Origin: Planctomycetota bacterium
GTDB taxonomy: Bacteria; Planctomycetota; OFTM77
Assembly: GCA_029260795.1 (NCBI GenBank)
Contig: JAJDCO010000015.1
Span: forward strand, 1-64,000
Direction of reading: 5' to 3'
DNA: 64,000 nucleotides
Shown: piece by piece, positions 7,542-48,298 of the stretch
Numbering within the stretch: the stretch's first letter is position 1
Layout of the letters: the number at the start of each line of letters is the position of its first letter
The notes under the pieces: model-generated
Databases searched by the model: none
What the model was told of the DNA's origin: nothing
The model's input: only the letters and a program-made list of their open reading frames with translations
Position numbers and translations under genes: made by a program

Positions 7542-9047
7542 ATGAGCACTCGAGAGATCTACGACCAATTCCACCGACACATCCGTCGGCTCGGCGACCT
7601 GAGAACGGCGAGCCATGTGCTCGAGTGGGATCAGGAGACGTACATGCCTCCCAAGGGGGCCACCGCCCGCGGGCAGGTGCTCGGAACGCTCGCCGGCCTG
7701 GCCCACGACCAACTCACCTCGGATCGCCTCGGGAGATGGATCGACGAGATGCTCGCCGCATCGAGCGAGCTCGACGAACGCCAGCGGGCCAACGTGCGTG
7801 AGGTCCAACGCGACCGCGAGCGCGCGCGCAAGCTACCCCGTGAGCTGGTCGAGCGCCTCTCGCTGGCAGCCTCTCGCGGGCTGGAAGTCTGGAAGCATGC
7901 CCGCGAGACGAATCGCTTCGCCTTGTTTGCCCCCGAGCTCGAGAAGCAGGTCGAGCTGCAACGCGAAGTCGCAGAAGCCTATGGCTACACCGGTCACCCT
8001 TACGATGCCTTGCTCGAAGGCTACGAGCCCGGTGCTCGCGTCGCCGACCTGGACCCACTGTTTCGCGAGCTCGAAGAGGTGCTGGTGCCACTGGTCCGTG
8101 CCATTCAGACCTCCGAGACGCCCATCGACTCGAGCATCCTGCGCGGCGACTTTCCTCCCGAACGCCAGAAGAAGTTCGCCCTGGAGGTAATCGCGGCAAT
8201 CGGGTTCGACTTGGACGCCGGTCGGGTGGACGTCTCCGCGCATCCGTTCTGCAGCGGCTTCGCTCCTCAGGATGTCCGCCTCACGACGCGCTTTTCACCT
8301 CGCGATCTGCGGCCGGCGGTCTTCGGGCTGTTCCACGAGGCCGGCCATGGCCTGTACGAGCAGGGCCTCGAGCCGTCCGAGCGCGGCCTCCCGATCGGTC
8401 AAGCGGTCTCGATGGGCGTTCACGAGTCCCAGTCTCGGCTCTGGGAGAACGTCATCGGTCGCAGCCGACCTTTCTGGCAACGTTTCTTTCCCCGAATCGA
8501 GTCGCTGTTTCCGATGCTCTTCGGCCGCGACATGGAAGACTTCTACCGCGCGATCAATGCCGTCGAGCCTTCCTTCATTCGAGTCGAGGCCGACGAGGTC
8601 ACCTACAATCTCCACATCATCCTGCGGTATCAGATCGAGAAGGCGCTGCTCAGCCGCGAGCTCGCGGTCAAGGACTTGCCAACCGCCTGGAACGAGAAGA
8701 TGCGGACCCTGCTCGGCGTCACTCCTCCCGACGATGCCCAGGGCGTCTTACAAGACGTGCACTGGTCGATGGGAGCATTCGGATACTTTCCGACCTACGC
8801 GCTCGGCAACCTGTATGCTGCGCAGATTCACCGACAAGCCCAGCTCGAGCTGCCCCGGCTCTGGAGTGACATCGCGGCCGGGCGCTTCGCACCGCTGCGC
8901 GAATGGCTCCGAGAAAAGGTTCATCGGAACGGGCGTCGTTGGCTCCCTCGCCAGCTCCTGAAAGAGATCACCGGTGAACCCCCGTCCGCCGAGTTCTTCT
9001 GCGACTACCTGCGCCGCAAGTACGGCGAGCTGTACCGACTGGGCTGA
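7542..9047 (+). CDS. Family M32 metallocarboxypeptidase (carboxypeptidase Taq type), 501 aa
   Basis: This is a zinc carboxypeptidase removing C-terminal residues, probably in cytoplasmic peptide turnover. The HExxH motif is HEAGH at residues 265-269, followed by LYEQG and, about twenty residues on, GVHESQSRLWENVIG, which supplies the third zinc ligand and the conserved Glu of M32. The N-terminal WDQETYMPP and the C-terminal YALGNLYAAQ are also hallmarks of the family. 501 residues is the normal length. I chose ATG 7542 because a GGAAGAGAG purine run precedes it and the peptide starts MSTREIYDQF. The SGNH hydrolase gene begins directly after its stop, so the two are likely cotranscribed. Confidence 0.93.
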   Translation: MSTREIYDQFHRHIRRLGDLRTASHVLEWDQETYMPPKGATARGQVLGTLAGLAHDQLTSDRLGRWIDEMLAASSELDERQRANVREVQRDRERARKLPRELVERLSLAASRGLEVWKHARETNRFALFAPELEKQVELQREVAEAYGYTGHPYDALLEGYEPGARVADLDPLFRELEEVLVPLVRAIQTSETPIDSSILRGDFPPERQKKFALEVIAAIGFDLDAGRVDVSAHPFCSGFAPQDVRLTTRFSPRDLRPAVFGLFHEAGHGLYEQGLEPSERGLPIGQAVSMGVHESQSRLWENVIGRSRPFWQRFFPRIESLFPMLFGRDMEDFYRAINAVEPSFIRVEADEVTYNLHIILRYQIEKALLSRELAVKDLPTAWNEKMRTLLGVTPPDDAQGVLQDVHWSMGAFGYFPTYALGNLYAAQIHRQAQLELPRLWSDIAAGRFAPLREWLREKVHRNGRRWLPRQLLKEITGEPPSAEFFCDYLRRKYGELYRLG

Positions 9048-43092: not shown

Positions 43093-44910
43093 TCAGTTCG
43101 AGGCGGCCGGCCGGGCGCTCGGGTCGACGTCGAGGTACTTGACCCAGTTGTAAAAGGTCTCGGTGGGCTTGAAGTTCTTCAGCGAAGGTTGAACGAGGTA
43201 GTGACGTCGGCGAGCCATCGAGCCCGCGTACGGCGCATCGTCGAGCACCATGTCGCGCATCTTCTCGTAGAGGGCCGTTCGTTCCGGTGACGGCACCATC
43301 GTCCGGCACTGCTCGTACAGCTTGTCGTACTCGGCGTTCTTGTAGTTGAAGTGGTTCGACCCGGGCGACTCGTTCGGACCGTAGAACAAGGCGAGGTTGT
43401 TCTCGGCGTCCGGGTAGTCGGAGCTCCAGGCAAACGAGAAGAAGGGCGCCTTCTTCGTGTTGACGGTCTCGATCAAGGTCGAGAAATCGACCAGACGGAC
43501 TTTCACCTCGATACCGAGACGAGAGAGCTGTCGCTTGAGCATCTCGGCCTGCTCGGCGCTGTTGCCGCTGCGGCTGACGTAGTACTCGAGGGCCGGCAGC
43601 CCCTGTCCCCCTGGGTAACCCGCATCGGCGAGCAGCTTCTTCGCCAGCTCGATGTTCGCGTCGCCGTAATCCTGCCCCTTCACCTTGTGGCTGGCCGGAT
43701 GACCGTCCATGTCCGGAGGGATCATGCCGTCGTACACGATGTTCTTGCTGTTGTAGAAGGAGCGGTTCTGCTCCTCCCAGTCGAGCGCAGTGCAGATCGC
43801 CTTGCGCAGCTTGACCTTCTCCTCGGTGTACCCACCCAGGAGCGAATCTTCCATGTTGAAGCCGCGGAAGATGAAGTCGAGCAGCGGCACCTCGTGAGCG
43901 GTGATGCCCCGCGCGGCCCACTCCGGCTTCAGCTCTCGCGTCCGCTTGTTGAAGGCCTCTTCGAAGTTCTCGGCCGGCACCTGCGTGTACTGGATGTTCT
44001 TGCCCGCGTCGAACTGCAGCCACATCGGCTGGTCCTGCTGGAACATCGTGATCACGACGCGATCGGCGATCGGGAGCGCGGTACCGACGGCTTTCGTGAA
44101 GCCTGCCTCGACGTCCCCGGGCATGCTCTCGTCCGGGTAACGATCATCCCAGTAGGTCGGGTTGCGCACGAAGACCATCTTCTTGCGGCGCTCCCACGAG
44201 TCCAACTTGAACGGTCCCGTCCCCACCGGGTGATCGACGAACGCGTCGCCATGATGATCGACCGCTTCGCGCGGAACGACCGCGAGCTGAAACATCGCCA
44301 GCTTCCACATGAACGTGTACACGGGCTCGGTGAGCGTGACCTGGAACTCGTGTTCGCCGAGCAGCTTCAGGCCCGAGACCTCCTGCTTGTAGTCGAACTT
44401 GCCGCCACCATCGACGGCCAAGTTCTGCGCCTCTCGATAGGCATCGAAGCCCTCGATCTGGCCGTCGAGTAGCCACCAGCTCTTGGGGCTGTTCGACTCG
44501 TCCGCCATCCGCTTCCACGAGTAGATCACGTCCGCGGCCACCAGCTCTCGGCCCTTGCCGTCCGGGAAGCACTCGTCGTCCTGGAACCGGATGCCCTTCT
44601 GGAGCTTGAAGGTGTAGACCCGGCCATCGTCGGAGATGCTCGGCATCTCCTCGAGGAGGAGTGGCTCCAGCTCGTAGGGGCGAATCAGGTACTTGTATTG
44701 AAGGAGCGGCTGATAGACCAGGCTGCAGGCGCGGTTGTCGTAGGTCGTCGATCCGCGAACCGGGTCCATCGTCTTGGGTCCGTCGGTCCGCATCGGCAAG
44801 CTCAAGACCTTGGCGCCCGACGAGTCGGTCTCGTCGCCTCCACAGGCCCCGCCGGCCAGGACCAGCAAGGCGGCGACTCCGATGCGTGTGAACCAATCCG
44901 TCCCGGTCAT
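43093..44910 (-). CDS. oppA: Peptide ABC transporter substrate-binding lipoprotein (SBP_bac_5), 605 aa
   Basis: A signal peptide with a lipobox-like end (LLVLAGGAC, Cys about residue 23) precedes a large family-5 binding domain. Diagnostic segments are LSLPMRTDGPKTMDPVRG near residue 40, YTFKLQKGIRFQDDECFPDG at about 121 and AADVIYSWKRMAD. Later ones include YRKAICTALDWEEQ-like helix (KLRKAICTALDWEEQN) and the C-terminal AWSSDYPDAENNLALFYG. It captures peptides (or nickel/oligosaccharide in some members) in the periplasm for the B/C/D/F complex. It is the first gene of the operon. Ligand specificity is unknown. Confidence 0.93.
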   Translation of the reverse strand: MTGTDWFTRIGVAALLVLAGGACGGDETDSSGAKVLSLPMRTDGPKTMDPVRGSTTYDNRACSLVYQPLLQYKYLIRPYELEPLLLEEMPSISDDGRVYTFKLQKGIRFQDDECFPDGKGRELVAADVIYSWKRMADESNSPKSWWLLDGQIEGFDAYREAQNLAVDGGGKFDYKQEVSGLKLLGEHEFQVTLTEPVYTFMWKLAMFQLAVVPREAVDHHGDAFVDHPVGTGPFKLDSWERRKKMVFVRNPTYWDDRYPDESMPGDVEAGFTKAVGTALPIADRVVITMFQQDQPMWLQFDAGKNIQYTQVPAENFEEAFNKRTRELKPEWAARGITAHEVPLLDFIFRGFNMEDSLLGGYTEEKVKLRKAICTALDWEEQNRSFYNSKNIVYDGMIPPDMDGHPASHKVKGQDYGDANIELAKKLLADAGYPGGQGLPALEYYVSRSGNSAEQAEMLKRQLSRLGIEVKVRLVDFSTLIETVNTKKAPFFSFAWSSDYPDAENNLALFYGPNESPGSNHFNYKNAEYDKLYEQCRTMVPSPERTALYEKMRDMVLDDAPYAGSMARRRHYLVQPSLKNFKPTETFYNWVKYLDVDPSARPAASN

Positions 44911-45157: not shown

Positions 45158-46303
45158 TCAGGCCGGTGTCAGGCCCGGGCCGGAGAAGCGCTCGACGAAC
45201 ACCGCCCGCCGAAGACCGGTCAGACGAGCCTGGCGTCGAAGGCTCTCGATCATCGGAGGCGTCAAGGTGACCCCCGAGGCGAGGAGGAGCGAGCCAGGGC
45301 GCGAGTGAACGTTGACGAGCACGAGGTCACCACTCTGGAGCTCGATGGGATCCACCGACAGCTCTTTTCCCAGGACCAGCTCGCCTCCGTTCTGTGTGAG
45401 CTCGATCTCACATGCCTGCAAGAGCCGAGGATCGAGCCGACCTCTCTCGGCACGCAGCTTTGCAAAGGCCTCAGCGGGCGAGAGCCCGTGACGCTCCAGC
45501 GGCTCGATCGCGAGGAGGATGTGCAGCAAGCGCGCTCCTCTCGGGATCTCCGGACCCGATTTCAAGTTGTCTGGCGGTCCCGATCCATCGAAGTACTTTG
45601 CTTGATAGCGAATCAGCTTGGCGGTCGCCTCGAAGCGAGGCAGGGTCTCCACCAGATCCGCGCCCGGCTCTGCCAGCTCGGCCGCTCTCCATTCATTCCA
45701 GGCCTCGGCATTCTCGTCACCGGGCTCTTCTACTAGCCGGCCGATCTCGCTCAGAAGCGCCGCGACCACGATTTCCGGACGCCCCAGGTCGTGCCGTCGC
45801 GTGATCAGCCGCGCTCGCTTTTGACGTTTTTGAGACCGACGGAATGCGTCGGGGTGCCTGCATCGCAAGAACTCGAGCCACGACTCGATCGCCGCCTTGG
45901 CGGTCGAGTCTCGCAGCGTTCGCTCCGTTTCGAGCCGCTCTCCCTCGAGAAGGCACCGACGGATGGTCTCCCGAAGCGCTCCGATCGAAAGCGGCTTGTA
46001 GACGATTCGGTACACCTTGGCCGCGTTGACCGCCGCCAGGGCCCTCTCGAGAGTCCGCAGCGTCGTGACGACCACGACGACCGCTCGTGGACGGAGCGCG
46101 GCGCAGCGCCGAACGAAATCGGCCGCTGACTGCCGGCGCATGCCCGAGTCGACGAAGACCACTCGAAAGCTCTCTTCAGCCAGTTTCTCGAGGCCAGCCC
46201 GACCGGTCGTAGCGGTGACCACCTCGAACACTCCCGCCAGGCTCCGCTGGTAGGCAAGGAGGTAGCTCTCGTCCTCGTCGACGAAGAGGATGCGCTCTTT
46301 CAT
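45158..46303 (-). CDS. Response regulator with degenerate HD-GYP-like output domain, 381 aa
   Basis: Receiver (1-120): FVDEDES, phosphoacceptor D52 in VVFVDSGM and K103 in VYKPLS are intact. The rest resembles an HD-GYP cyclic-di-GMP phosphodiesterase but with catalytic positions changed. The 'LLHDIGK' site reads ALLSEIGRL, the 'HHExxDGSGYP' site reads YQAKYFDGSGPPDNL, and the following EIPRGARLLHILLAIE keeps the family framework. Loss of the HD pair and GYP tyrosine suggests no hydrolase activity, so it may bind ligand or protein. I chose ATG 46303 (MKERILFVDED). It starts 19 bases after the thioredoxin stop and so is downstream in the same operon. Confidence 0.75.
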   Translation of the reverse strand: MKERILFVDEDESYLLAYQRSLAGVFEVVTATTGRAGLEKLAEESFRVVFVDSGMRRQSAADFVRRCAALRPRAVVVVVTTLRTLERALAAVNAAKVYRIVYKPLSIGALRETIRRCLLEGERLETERTLRDSTAKAAIESWLEFLRCRHPDAFRRSQKRQKRARLITRRHDLGRPEIVVAALLSEIGRLVEEPGDENAEAWNEWRAAELAEPGADLVETLPRFEATAKLIRYQAKYFDGSGPPDNLKSGPEIPRGARLLHILLAIEPLERHGLSPAEAFAKLRAERGRLDPRLLQACEIELTQNGGELVLGKELSVDPIELQSGDLVLVNVHSRPGSLLLASGVTLTPPMIESLRRQARLTGLRRAVFVERFSGPGLTPA

Positions 46304-46322: not shown

Positions 46323-46712
46323 TCAGCGGAGACGTCCGAGGACCTCACGCATCCCCTCGGCGACGAGCTCGCCGCCCTCGTAGAGACGGAGGCTCGGGAG
46401 CGATCGGATCCCGTACTGCTGGGCGACGTCGGATCCCCACTGGTCGATGTCGATCCGCACGAGGTGAGCCTGTTCGTTCTGGTTCACGAAAGCCTCCAAC
46501 TGAGGCCCTACCTGTTGGCAAGCCGGTCACCAATCGGCCGTGAACTCGACGATCGTCACGCCGGCATCCGAAATGTGAGACTCGATGTCCACACGCTCAC
46601 CGCGTGAGATCGTGCGGACTCGTCCATCCCCATCTCCTTCGGTATCTCGCTGCCACAGATAGAAGCCGGCGCCGGCCGCCATCAGAAGGAGAACCCATAC
46701 CTTTCCACTCAT
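46323..46712 (-). CDS. Membrane-anchored thioredoxin, candidate selenoprotein (UxxC active site), 129 aa
   Basis: From ATG 46712 (MSGKVWVLLLM) one membrane helix (about residues 4-20) leads to a thioredoxin fold: GVTIVEFTADW, then an in-frame TGA at codon 62 (46529-46527), then PACQQVGPQLEAFV. The frame then stays open through SDVAQQYGIRSLPSLRLYEG with the cis-Pro P106, to a TGA stop at 46323. The active site is therefore W-(TGA)-P-A-C, with the TGA exactly where the first Cys of CxxC belongs. Selenocysteine is the simplest reading; a TGC-to-TGA nonsense mutation is the alternative. A stable hairpin lies 17 bases after the TGA (separate entry). An automatic caller would truncate it at 46527. 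It is followed by the receiver/HD-GYP gene, 19 bases on. Confidence 0.75.
46489..46509 (-). promoter_or_regulatory. SECIS-like hairpin downstream of the in-frame TGA
   Basis: On the minus strand AGGGCCTC (46509-46502) pairs fully with GAGGCTTT (46496-46489, two G-U pairs) around the loop AGTTG. Bacterial SECIS elements are hairpins inside the coding region just after the UGA, with a small apical loop containing G and U for SelB binding. The distance here (loop about 28 bases after the TGA) is slightly longer than in E. coli fdhF. Confidence 0.45.
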
Positions 46713-46960: not shown

Positions 46961-48298
46961 ATGAAGAGAACACTGCTGCTGGGGATCACGATCACGCTGT
47001 TCTCCTTGCCGGTCCGGGGTCAGGAGCCCTTCCAGTTCGATCGGCGGACCCCGGTCGTGCAAGTGGTCGAGCGCTTTGGTGACTGCGTGCTCAGCGTCTC
47101 GACGACTCGCCTCCCGGACCGGAATACCCAAGACCCGTTCTCCCGAATCTTCGGAACGCCCCGGCCCACTGGCGAGCTGGGATCGGGCGTCATCATCGAC
47201 CCCGCAGGCTATGTGATCACCAACGCCCACGTGGTCTACGGTTCCGACGAGATCCGCGTCAAGCTGCTCGACGGCAGCGAGTATGTCGCCAGCCTCCTGA
47301 GCTCCGACGTCGCCAACGACCTCGCCTTGCTCAAGATCGACTCGAACGAGCCTTTCTCCTACGTGCCCCTGGGTCGCTCCGAGGACGTGATGATCGGCGA
47401 GACGGTCATCGCCTTGGGTAACCCATACGGCCTGACGAACACCGTCACGACTGGGGTGTTGAGCGCCAAGGACCGATCGGTGCCGACCGAGGCGAGCCGC
47501 GTCCGATTCGCCGATTTCCTGCAGACCGATGCGTCGATCAACCCGGGTAACAGCGGCGGCGCTCTGCTCAACATCAACGGCGAGCTCATCGGAATCAACA
47601 CCGCCATCACAAGGCAAGGACAAGGCATCGGATTCGCCATCCCCGTGGATCGGGTCCGCAAGGTTCTCCCGGACTTGCTCGACCTTCCTGTCGCGCGGGG
47701 CCTCTCGATCGGAGCCGAGTTCGATACCACCGACGAAGGAACGCCTCCGGCCATCGTCGTGACCTCGGTCGACCCCGATGCTCAGGCGGCCCGATTCGGG
47801 CTACGTCGCGGAGACCAGGTCGAGCGCGTCGACGGACGACGCGTCGAGAGCCTTCTCGATCTCAAGAAGCGACTGCTCGAGAAGCGGGCCGGCGACACCC
47901 TCGCTCTCTCGGTCCGGCGCGGATCTCTGATCGAGGATATCGAGCTGCCCGTCGAACCGATCGAGCAGGTGATGCGTCGACGCTTCCTTCGAAAGCTCGG
48001 ATTCTGGGGCGAACAACGACGCGTCCGGACTCGCGGTGCCGGCATGATCGAGGGTTTCCTGGTCAACGAGGTACGCGAGCACAGCCCCGCGACCCAGCTC
48101 GGGCTGCGCGAGGACGATGTGATCTACAAGATCGCGATCCCGGACGCGCGCCGGGGTCAGCTCGAGATCTCGACCTCGAAGCTCGACCTGTTCCAGGCCG
48201 TCTGCGAGCACAGCCGACCCGGCGACGAGCTGACGATCTACATCCTCCGCCGCGGTGAGCGCGATGCGTTGTTCGGGCCTCTGATCGTTCAAGACTGA
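46961..48298 (+). CDS. Periplasmic serine protease, HtrA/DegP family, with two PDZ domains, 445 aa
   Basis: A signal peptide (LLLGITITLFSLPVRGQ, residues 5-21) precedes a trypsin-like protease domain with the full triad: H90 in ITNAHVV, D120 in VANDLALLK and S198 in NPGNSGGAL. PDZ1 lies at about 250-320 (SVDPDAQAARFGLRRGDQVE) and PDZ2 at about 350-440 (VREHSPATQLGLREDDVIY), ending ILRRGERDALFG. HtrA/DegP proteases degrade or refold misfolded envelope proteins. The order signal-protease-PDZ-PDZ and the length match DegP/DegQ. It is divergent from the selenocysteine-thioredoxin candidate, with 248 bases between starts. Confidence 0.93.
   Translation: MKRTLLLGITITLFSLPVRGQEPFQFDRRTPVVQVVERFGDCVLSVSTTRLPDRNTQDPFSRIFGTPRPTGELGSGVIIDPAGYVITNAHVVYGSDEIRVKLLDGSEYVASLLSSDVANDLALLKIDSNEPFSYVPLGRSEDVMIGETVIALGNPYGLTNTVTTGVLSAKDRSVPTEASRVRFADFLQTDASINPGNSGGALLNINGELIGINTAITRQGQGIGFAIPVDRVRKVLPDLLDLPVARGLSIGAEFDTTDEGTPPAIVVTSVDPDAQAARFGLRRGDQVERVDGRRVESLLDLKKRLLEKRAGDTLALSVRRGSLIEDIELPVEPIEQVMRRRFLRKLGFWGEQRRVRTRGAGMIEGFLVNEVREHSPATQLGLREDDVIYKIAIPDARRGQLEISTSKLDLFQAVCEHSRPGDELTIYILRRGERDALFGPLIVQD

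Follow-up and report, generated by a model that had tools for sequence, protein, structure and literature searches.

A thioredoxin-family gene with TGA at its first active-site cysteine codon and a predicted membrane-anchored selenoprotein subfamily in Planctomycetota

The window analysed here, a stretch of 64,000 nucleotides that is contig C47 in our numbering of an 8.1 Mb draft genome (160 contigs, 94% complete), carries on its minus strand a thioredoxin-family gene of 129 codons plus a stop, which is open along its whole length if one in-frame TGA is read through. From the ATG at 46712 the frame translates as MSGKVWVLLLMAAGAGFYLWQRDTEG...VEFTADW-(TGA)-PACQQVGPQLEAF...IRSLPSLRLYEGG...LGRLR-(TGA); the program-made list of open reading frames contains an upstream GTG start that gives a 148-residue product. 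The internal TGA is codon 62 and coincides exactly with the first cysteine codon of the WCxxC motif, with 61 residues before it, and the second TGA ends the gene (Table 1). With the internal TGA taken as selenocysteine (Sec), the active-site motif becomes WUPAC, a Sec-Cys pair. The original prediction had placed a TGA at this cysteine codon in a thioredoxin frame that resumes at once, and the translation and the PF00085 match confirm the observation; its coordinates were correct, with the strand left unsaid, and the 62-residue truncated product that it foresaw is near enough to the 61 residues counted here. It had also anticipated that a gene caller would cut the protein short, and the protein database indeed holds, for this contig, a C-terminal stub of 54 residues (P0061). 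Four like stubs of 59-66 residues from other contigs (P0057, P0058, P0060 and P0063) begin shortly past the place expected for the TGA, and we infer that these too derive from TGA genes.

Downstream of the gene lies a minus-strand response-regulator/HD-domain protein (45158-46303), whose likely ATG is 19 nt past the thioredoxin stop, and on the other side lies a divergent HtrA-type trypsin/PDZ protease (46961-48298, plus strand). Apart from the thioredoxin gene and the frames antisense to it, the neighbourhood has only one match in common with the loci of relatives, a stretch of 82 residues that pairs the neighbouring response regulator with a fragment in genome G036; the neighbours were therefore not used as functional evidence. 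Among the 120 matches listed for a permease encoded nearby, 12 carry an organism name, of which ten are planctomycetes (the nearest at 86% identity), one is Verrucomicrobiales and one is labelled simply 'bacterium'; the phylum is accordingly very probably Planctomycetota.

Table 1. Positions in the window of the thioredoxin-family gene and of the features assigned to it.
Feature	Position	Strand	Basis
Thioredoxin-family gene, read through TGA	46323..46712	-	translation; PF00085 56.8 bits; AlphaFold pLDDT
Internal TGA (codon 62), predicted to encode selenocysteine at the first position of WUxxC	46527..46529	-	translation; same codon TGA in 17 relatives' genes
Resolving Cys65 codon (TGC)	46518..46520	-	translation
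TGA ending the gene; no model-fitting hairpin after it	46323..46325	-	translation; hairpin scan
Predicted N-terminal membrane anchor, residues 5-20, VWVLLLMAAGAGFYLW	46653..46700	-	by eye; hydrophobic N-termini also in relatives
Predicted bacterial SECIS hairpin, AGGGCCUC-AGUUG-GAGGCUUU	46489..46509	-	-9.6 kcal/mol, spacing 25; conservation tests
Apical loop AGUUG, with its G at 46500 (nucleotide 30, counted from the T of TGA)	46497..46501	-	alignment

When the TGA is read as a residue, the protein scores 56.8 bits against PF00085 (cut-off 23.5) in a single match over residues 45-118 that spans the TGA. Its score against the TrxA equivalog TIGR01068 is 52.9 bits and does not reach the cut-off of 96.8, and the protein is accordingly thioredoxin-like and not filed as TrxA. 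An AlphaFold model built with 52 relatives from the protein database has block mean pLDDT values of 95-98 from residue 31 onward and of 52-60 before it, and the thioredoxin domain is modelled confidently across the TGA; 44 of the 50 PDB matches listed for this model are titled thioredoxin or Trx, the other six titles being silent on the point. The N-terminus carries a hydrophobic stretch of 16 residues, assigned by eye as a predicted membrane anchor, and many of the relatives have, by the same kind of reading, similar anchors or lipobox-like starts, which suggests an extracytoplasmic position for the thioredoxin domain.

One could instead take the TGA for a nonsense mutation, or for a mistake of assembly, in what is otherwise an ordinary cysteine thioredoxin, which would make the gene broken or misread. 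In favour of this are the draft state of the assembly, the commonness of cysteine homologs and the single base that separates TGC from TGA. Relatives were searched for in sets of 99 and 392 genomes of the phylum, the 98 other genomes of the first set all being marked as belonging to the same phylum only, and the best and the TGA-flagged matches of both searches were read at the codon level. Aligning the homologs at the TGA codon, as had been proposed at the outset, shows TGA in 18 genes from 15 genomes, namely our own gene and 17 genes from 14 other genomes (G057, G013, G041, G026, three in G036, G005, G006, G131, G190, G148, G177, two in G106, G160 and G304), and a cysteine codon in 10 related genes (TGC in nine, TGT in one). 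The recurrence of TGA at the same codon accords with the original supposition that its position at the catalytic codon reflects more than chance. In addition, the frame is open and thioredoxin-like up to its stop, and a hairpin follows the TGA as it does in the other TGA forms, whereas the cysteine forms examined have none there or one that does not fit. Against this evidence, mutation or error is a very improbable account of the TGA. The counter-case raised in the original prediction, a single decaying copy among close relatives with TGC, is likewise not what we found, as TGA and hairpin are conserved together in the 18 genes of 15 genomes, among relatives placed at the level of the phylum only.

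Some candidates were excluded from these counts. The TGAs of G037 and G106c were set aside because they lie upstream of an intact WCGPC and not at the active site, and the active-site TGAs of G045 and G080, in genes for more ordinary thioredoxins, were left out of the 18; in both (GAGUPTC in L128 of G045, DDUPVC in L127 of G080) the TGA is at the first active-site codon, and both genomes have SelA. In the protein database, a search with the single sequence as query gave no match at 1e-3, and a search with an alignment as query gave 62 matches at 1e-10. A search of genome contigs kept 80 loci, 75 of them from Streptomyces and one each from Allonocardiopsis, Embleya, Glycomyces, Streptacidiphilus and Kitasatospora.

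Published constraints on the bacterial SECIS element are a loop of 3-9 nt with a G within its first two positions, a stem of 4-16 bp, a spacing of 16-37 nt and an energy of -7.5 kcal/mol or below (PMC13188914). The hairpin after codon 62 lies within every one of these: it starts about 17 nt past the TGA, its loop starts 25 nt past it, and its stem has eight contiguous pairs, counting two G-U pairs and the outer A-U pair. The model passes 69 of the 1567 TGAs in the window at -7.5 kcal/mol by chance, and no model-fitting hairpin follows the normal stop of the gene. An ungapped alignment of the 18 TGA forms has T1, G2, A3, T10, G11, T20, G30 and T32 invariant. The sequence CCTCAGTTGGAG is common to our gene and those of G057, G041, G026, G131, G190a, G148 and G177; in G036b, G106a and G106b the stem is kept with CAGGTTG though Leu is replaced by Val, and in G005, G036c and G160 different bases are paired, with a four-base loop.

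The hairpin separates the TGA forms from the cysteine forms in several tests. Relative to synonymous-codon shuffles (G106c left out, and codon usage roughly estimated at each locus from its three longest stop-free frames), the observed hairpin is stronger in the TGA forms (median p 0.022 over 18 genes, combined 1e-11), whereas nine TGC forms show no effect (median p 0.47, combined 0.60). These and the other hairpin p-values are guides only, given that the region was picked with the data already in view and that the genes share ancestry. The loop G is present in 18 of 18 TGA forms versus 2 of 10 cysteine forms (Fisher 1.4e-5); it occupies a third codon position, and in the TGA forms it stays G across codons for Gln (15), Arg, Pro and Gly (one each). 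Where the following codon encodes Leu, it is TTG in 11 of 13 TGA forms versus none of five cysteine forms, TTG making up 13% of the Leu codons in seven genes of the window. A strict test that demands a contiguous stem at -7.0 kcal/mol or below is passed by 13 of 18 TGA forms and by none of 10 cysteine forms; at the published -7.5 it is passed by 11 of the 18, with seven failing. The forms that fail at -7.0 are G013, G041, G036a, G006 and G106a, four of which contain bulges or mismatches as judged by eye. Among the cysteine forms, one hairpin of -9.1 kcal/mol appears, in that of G117 at a spacing of 33, if the G[G/U] rule (a G followed by G or U) is dropped. Covariation within the stem gives a mixed result, with two of five measures not exceeding the shuffles: changes on both sides of a pair occur in 13 cells versus 6.1 +/- 2.2 after shuffling, and the covariation score lies above all 500 shuffles, but counts of the pairs that change on both sides (4 versus 3.7) and of further pair types (9 versus 7.6) do not stand out, and sliding by one base keeps much of the signal, with 10 of the both-side-change cells.

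The genome has the machinery to use such an element. A tRNA-Sec gene with the anticodon TCA, as called by ARAGORN, lies on contig C101 (18951-19042; 80.2 bits, over its cut-off), with SelA near it (525 bits, cut-off 267.9, and also matched by PF03841) and SelD between the two (368.8 bits, cut-off 125); SelB is on contig C113 (359.9 bits, cut-off 242.25). All four of selA, selB, selC and selD, whose absence would have spoken against the original prediction, are thus present in this 94%-complete genome. Their presence bears on a further alternative, in which the UGA is decoded as one of the ordinary amino acids, such as Cys or Trp, through a changed code or plain suppression, with no selenium involved. 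The frame is open whatever the TGA encodes, and to that extent agrees with such a reading, but the gene's own end is a TGA, the genome holds tRNA-Sec, SelA, SelB and SelD, and a conserved hairpin that fits the SECIS model would be left idle; we consider the chance that an ordinary amino acid is inserted to be slight in the extreme. Taken together, the hairpin, the selABCD genes and the conservation of the TGA lend sequence-based support to the original reading of the gene as a candidate selenoprotein, and the active-site TGA is very probably read as selenocysteine under the direction of the conserved hairpin that follows it.

SelD itself (L010:7079-8125, minus strand, on contig C101) has an in-frame TGA at GUAAK, and UxxK is the motif listed for Sec-containing SelD. 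The hairpin after this TGA fits the SECIS model, with a GUG loop, a spacing of 33 and -10.6 kcal/mol. SelD is thus a probable second selenoprotein, and with the thioredoxin the genome appears to make at least two. A GC3 frame test for further selenoproteins in the window passes two TGAs, both on the plus strand: that at 9045 lies between two long open stretches of the same frame with coding-like GC3, and looks like the end of one gene beside the start of the next, and that at 43895 is antisense to a gene for a substrate-binding protein.

By analogy with established bacterial selenocysteine insertion (reviewed in PMC13188914), the hairpin with its AGUUG loop would be recognised by SelB, which would deliver Sec-tRNA when the ribosome reaches the UGA of codon 62; with selenocysteine inserted, translation would continue and terminate at the ordinary TGA, after which no such hairpin lies. 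Anchored in the membrane by its N-terminal segment, the protein would then expose its thioredoxin domain on the extracytoplasmic side, and there the Sec-Cys pair of WUPAC would reduce or exchange disulfides. A likely electron donor that would re-reduce this pair is the genome's DsbD-like protein (L180:1-2733, plus strand, on contig C83), in which three DsbD_N stretches precede DsbD_TM and a thioredoxin-like end; it scores 154 of the 330 bits set as the NCBIfam DsbD cut-off, and its best NCBIfam match, far below cut-off, is the TsoB rhodanese/DsbD selenoprotein model. The selenium in the protein, its extracytoplasmic place and the part given to DsbD are inferred from the genes described above. 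Selenocysteine might instead be inserted into a protein that is cytoplasmic, or dedicated to a single substrate (a metal-handling protein, for instance), and that is not an exported general disulfide exchanger. The anchor is a reading by eye, distant cysteine relatives fused to a heavy-metal (HMA) domain occur in G117, G163 and G190, and no conserved neighbour gene points to a partner, all of which would suit a protein of that kind; set against these are the hydrophobic or lipobox-like N-termini that recur, by eye, among the relatives, and a DsbD in the genome able to feed an exported protein. We regard a cytoplasmic or specialised role as unlikely, at about one chance in four, and favour the exported selenothioredoxin.

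In all four of the HMA fusions, which are WCGPC thioredoxins with the HMA domain at the N-terminus (L176, L177, L178 and L156, from G117, G190 twice and G163), two in-frame TGAs lie twelve bases apart (GMTUxxGUG, with UxxxU spacing). Three were scanned with NCBIfam NF041115, the model of a UxxU metal-binding selenoprotein, and scored 38.7-53.6 bits (cut-off 95); the fusions may be a variant of that kind.

Across the phylum sample, SelA is matched in 275 of 392 genomes, and it is matched in 15 of the 15 genomes that have a TGA form. No SelA match was found in G028, for which a TGC form was the only one read, and the SelA matches listed do not include G163. Having SelA does not commit a genome to the Sec form, since five genomes that possess it (G050, G051, G071, G088 and G117) show only cysteine forms among those read. 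In a tree of 78 rows and 112 columns, many forks of which are weak, the Sec label changes eight times, and at least six of these changes are forced by well-supported branches; the database rows of the tree are skewed to cysteine forms because callers cut the Sec forms. A broader interpretation joins these results: a distinct membrane-anchored selenothioredoxin subfamily would occur throughout Planctomycetota, with a nearly fixed SECIS (loops AGGUU, AGUU or AGUUG about 25 nt past the UGA, kept where the amino acids change), at least six exchanges between Sec and Cys, a DsbD-fed selenol pathway outside the cytoplasm, and members largely missing from databases as callers cut them at the UGA. We give this combined account an even chance of being right in all its parts.

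Selenoproteins of this kind are already known. UxxC thioredoxins of PF00085 are among the experimentally verified selenoproteins (PMC13188914, PMC9312934), in agreement with what the original prediction had said of them. Our predicted protein shares with the catalogued prokaryotic thioredoxin selenoprotein its domain, Sec in the first position of UxxC and a hairpin of the bacterial SECIS type, but has a predicted anchor and a TrxA score below cut-off. A 2006 survey gives a row of seven, naming Geobacter, Anaeromyxobacter, Carboxydothermus and Treponema denticola (PMC1794560). Metagenomic studies reported 11 thioredoxin selenoprotein sequences from the Sargasso Sea (PMC1088965) and 321 Trx-like 1 UxxC sequences under COG0526 from the Global Ocean Sampling (PMC2398784), which are likewise UxxC thioredoxin-like selenoproteins with many cysteine homologs, but are marine reads assigned to broad families. 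The thiol:disulfide interchange selenoprotein of PF13098 is also a UxxC protein of thioredoxin fold that acts in disulfide exchange, whereas our protein scores 23.5 bits against that family, below the cut-off of 27. Within the phylum, planctomycetes from Porphyra have selenoproteins and, like the genome studied here, a full set of Sec-insertion genes, but among the selenoproteins named in the main text of that report are FdhA and FmdB (PMC4807772). The kind is therefore already known, since UxxC selenoproteins of PF00085 have been catalogued and planctomycete selenoproteins described. The addition made here is a subfamily with a predicted membrane anchor, found in 15 genomes of the phylum and scoring below the TrxA equivalog cut-off; the subfamily is undercounted because gene callers split its members. 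It contributes a well-supported selenoprotein gene to a phylum in which selA is over its cut-off in 238 of the 392 sampled genomes. It also offers a natural experiment on the exchange of Sec and Cys at one catalytic position, with the hairpin in the Sec and not the Cys forms, and, if the protein is exported, would represent a selenol acting in disulfide exchange outside the cytoplasm.
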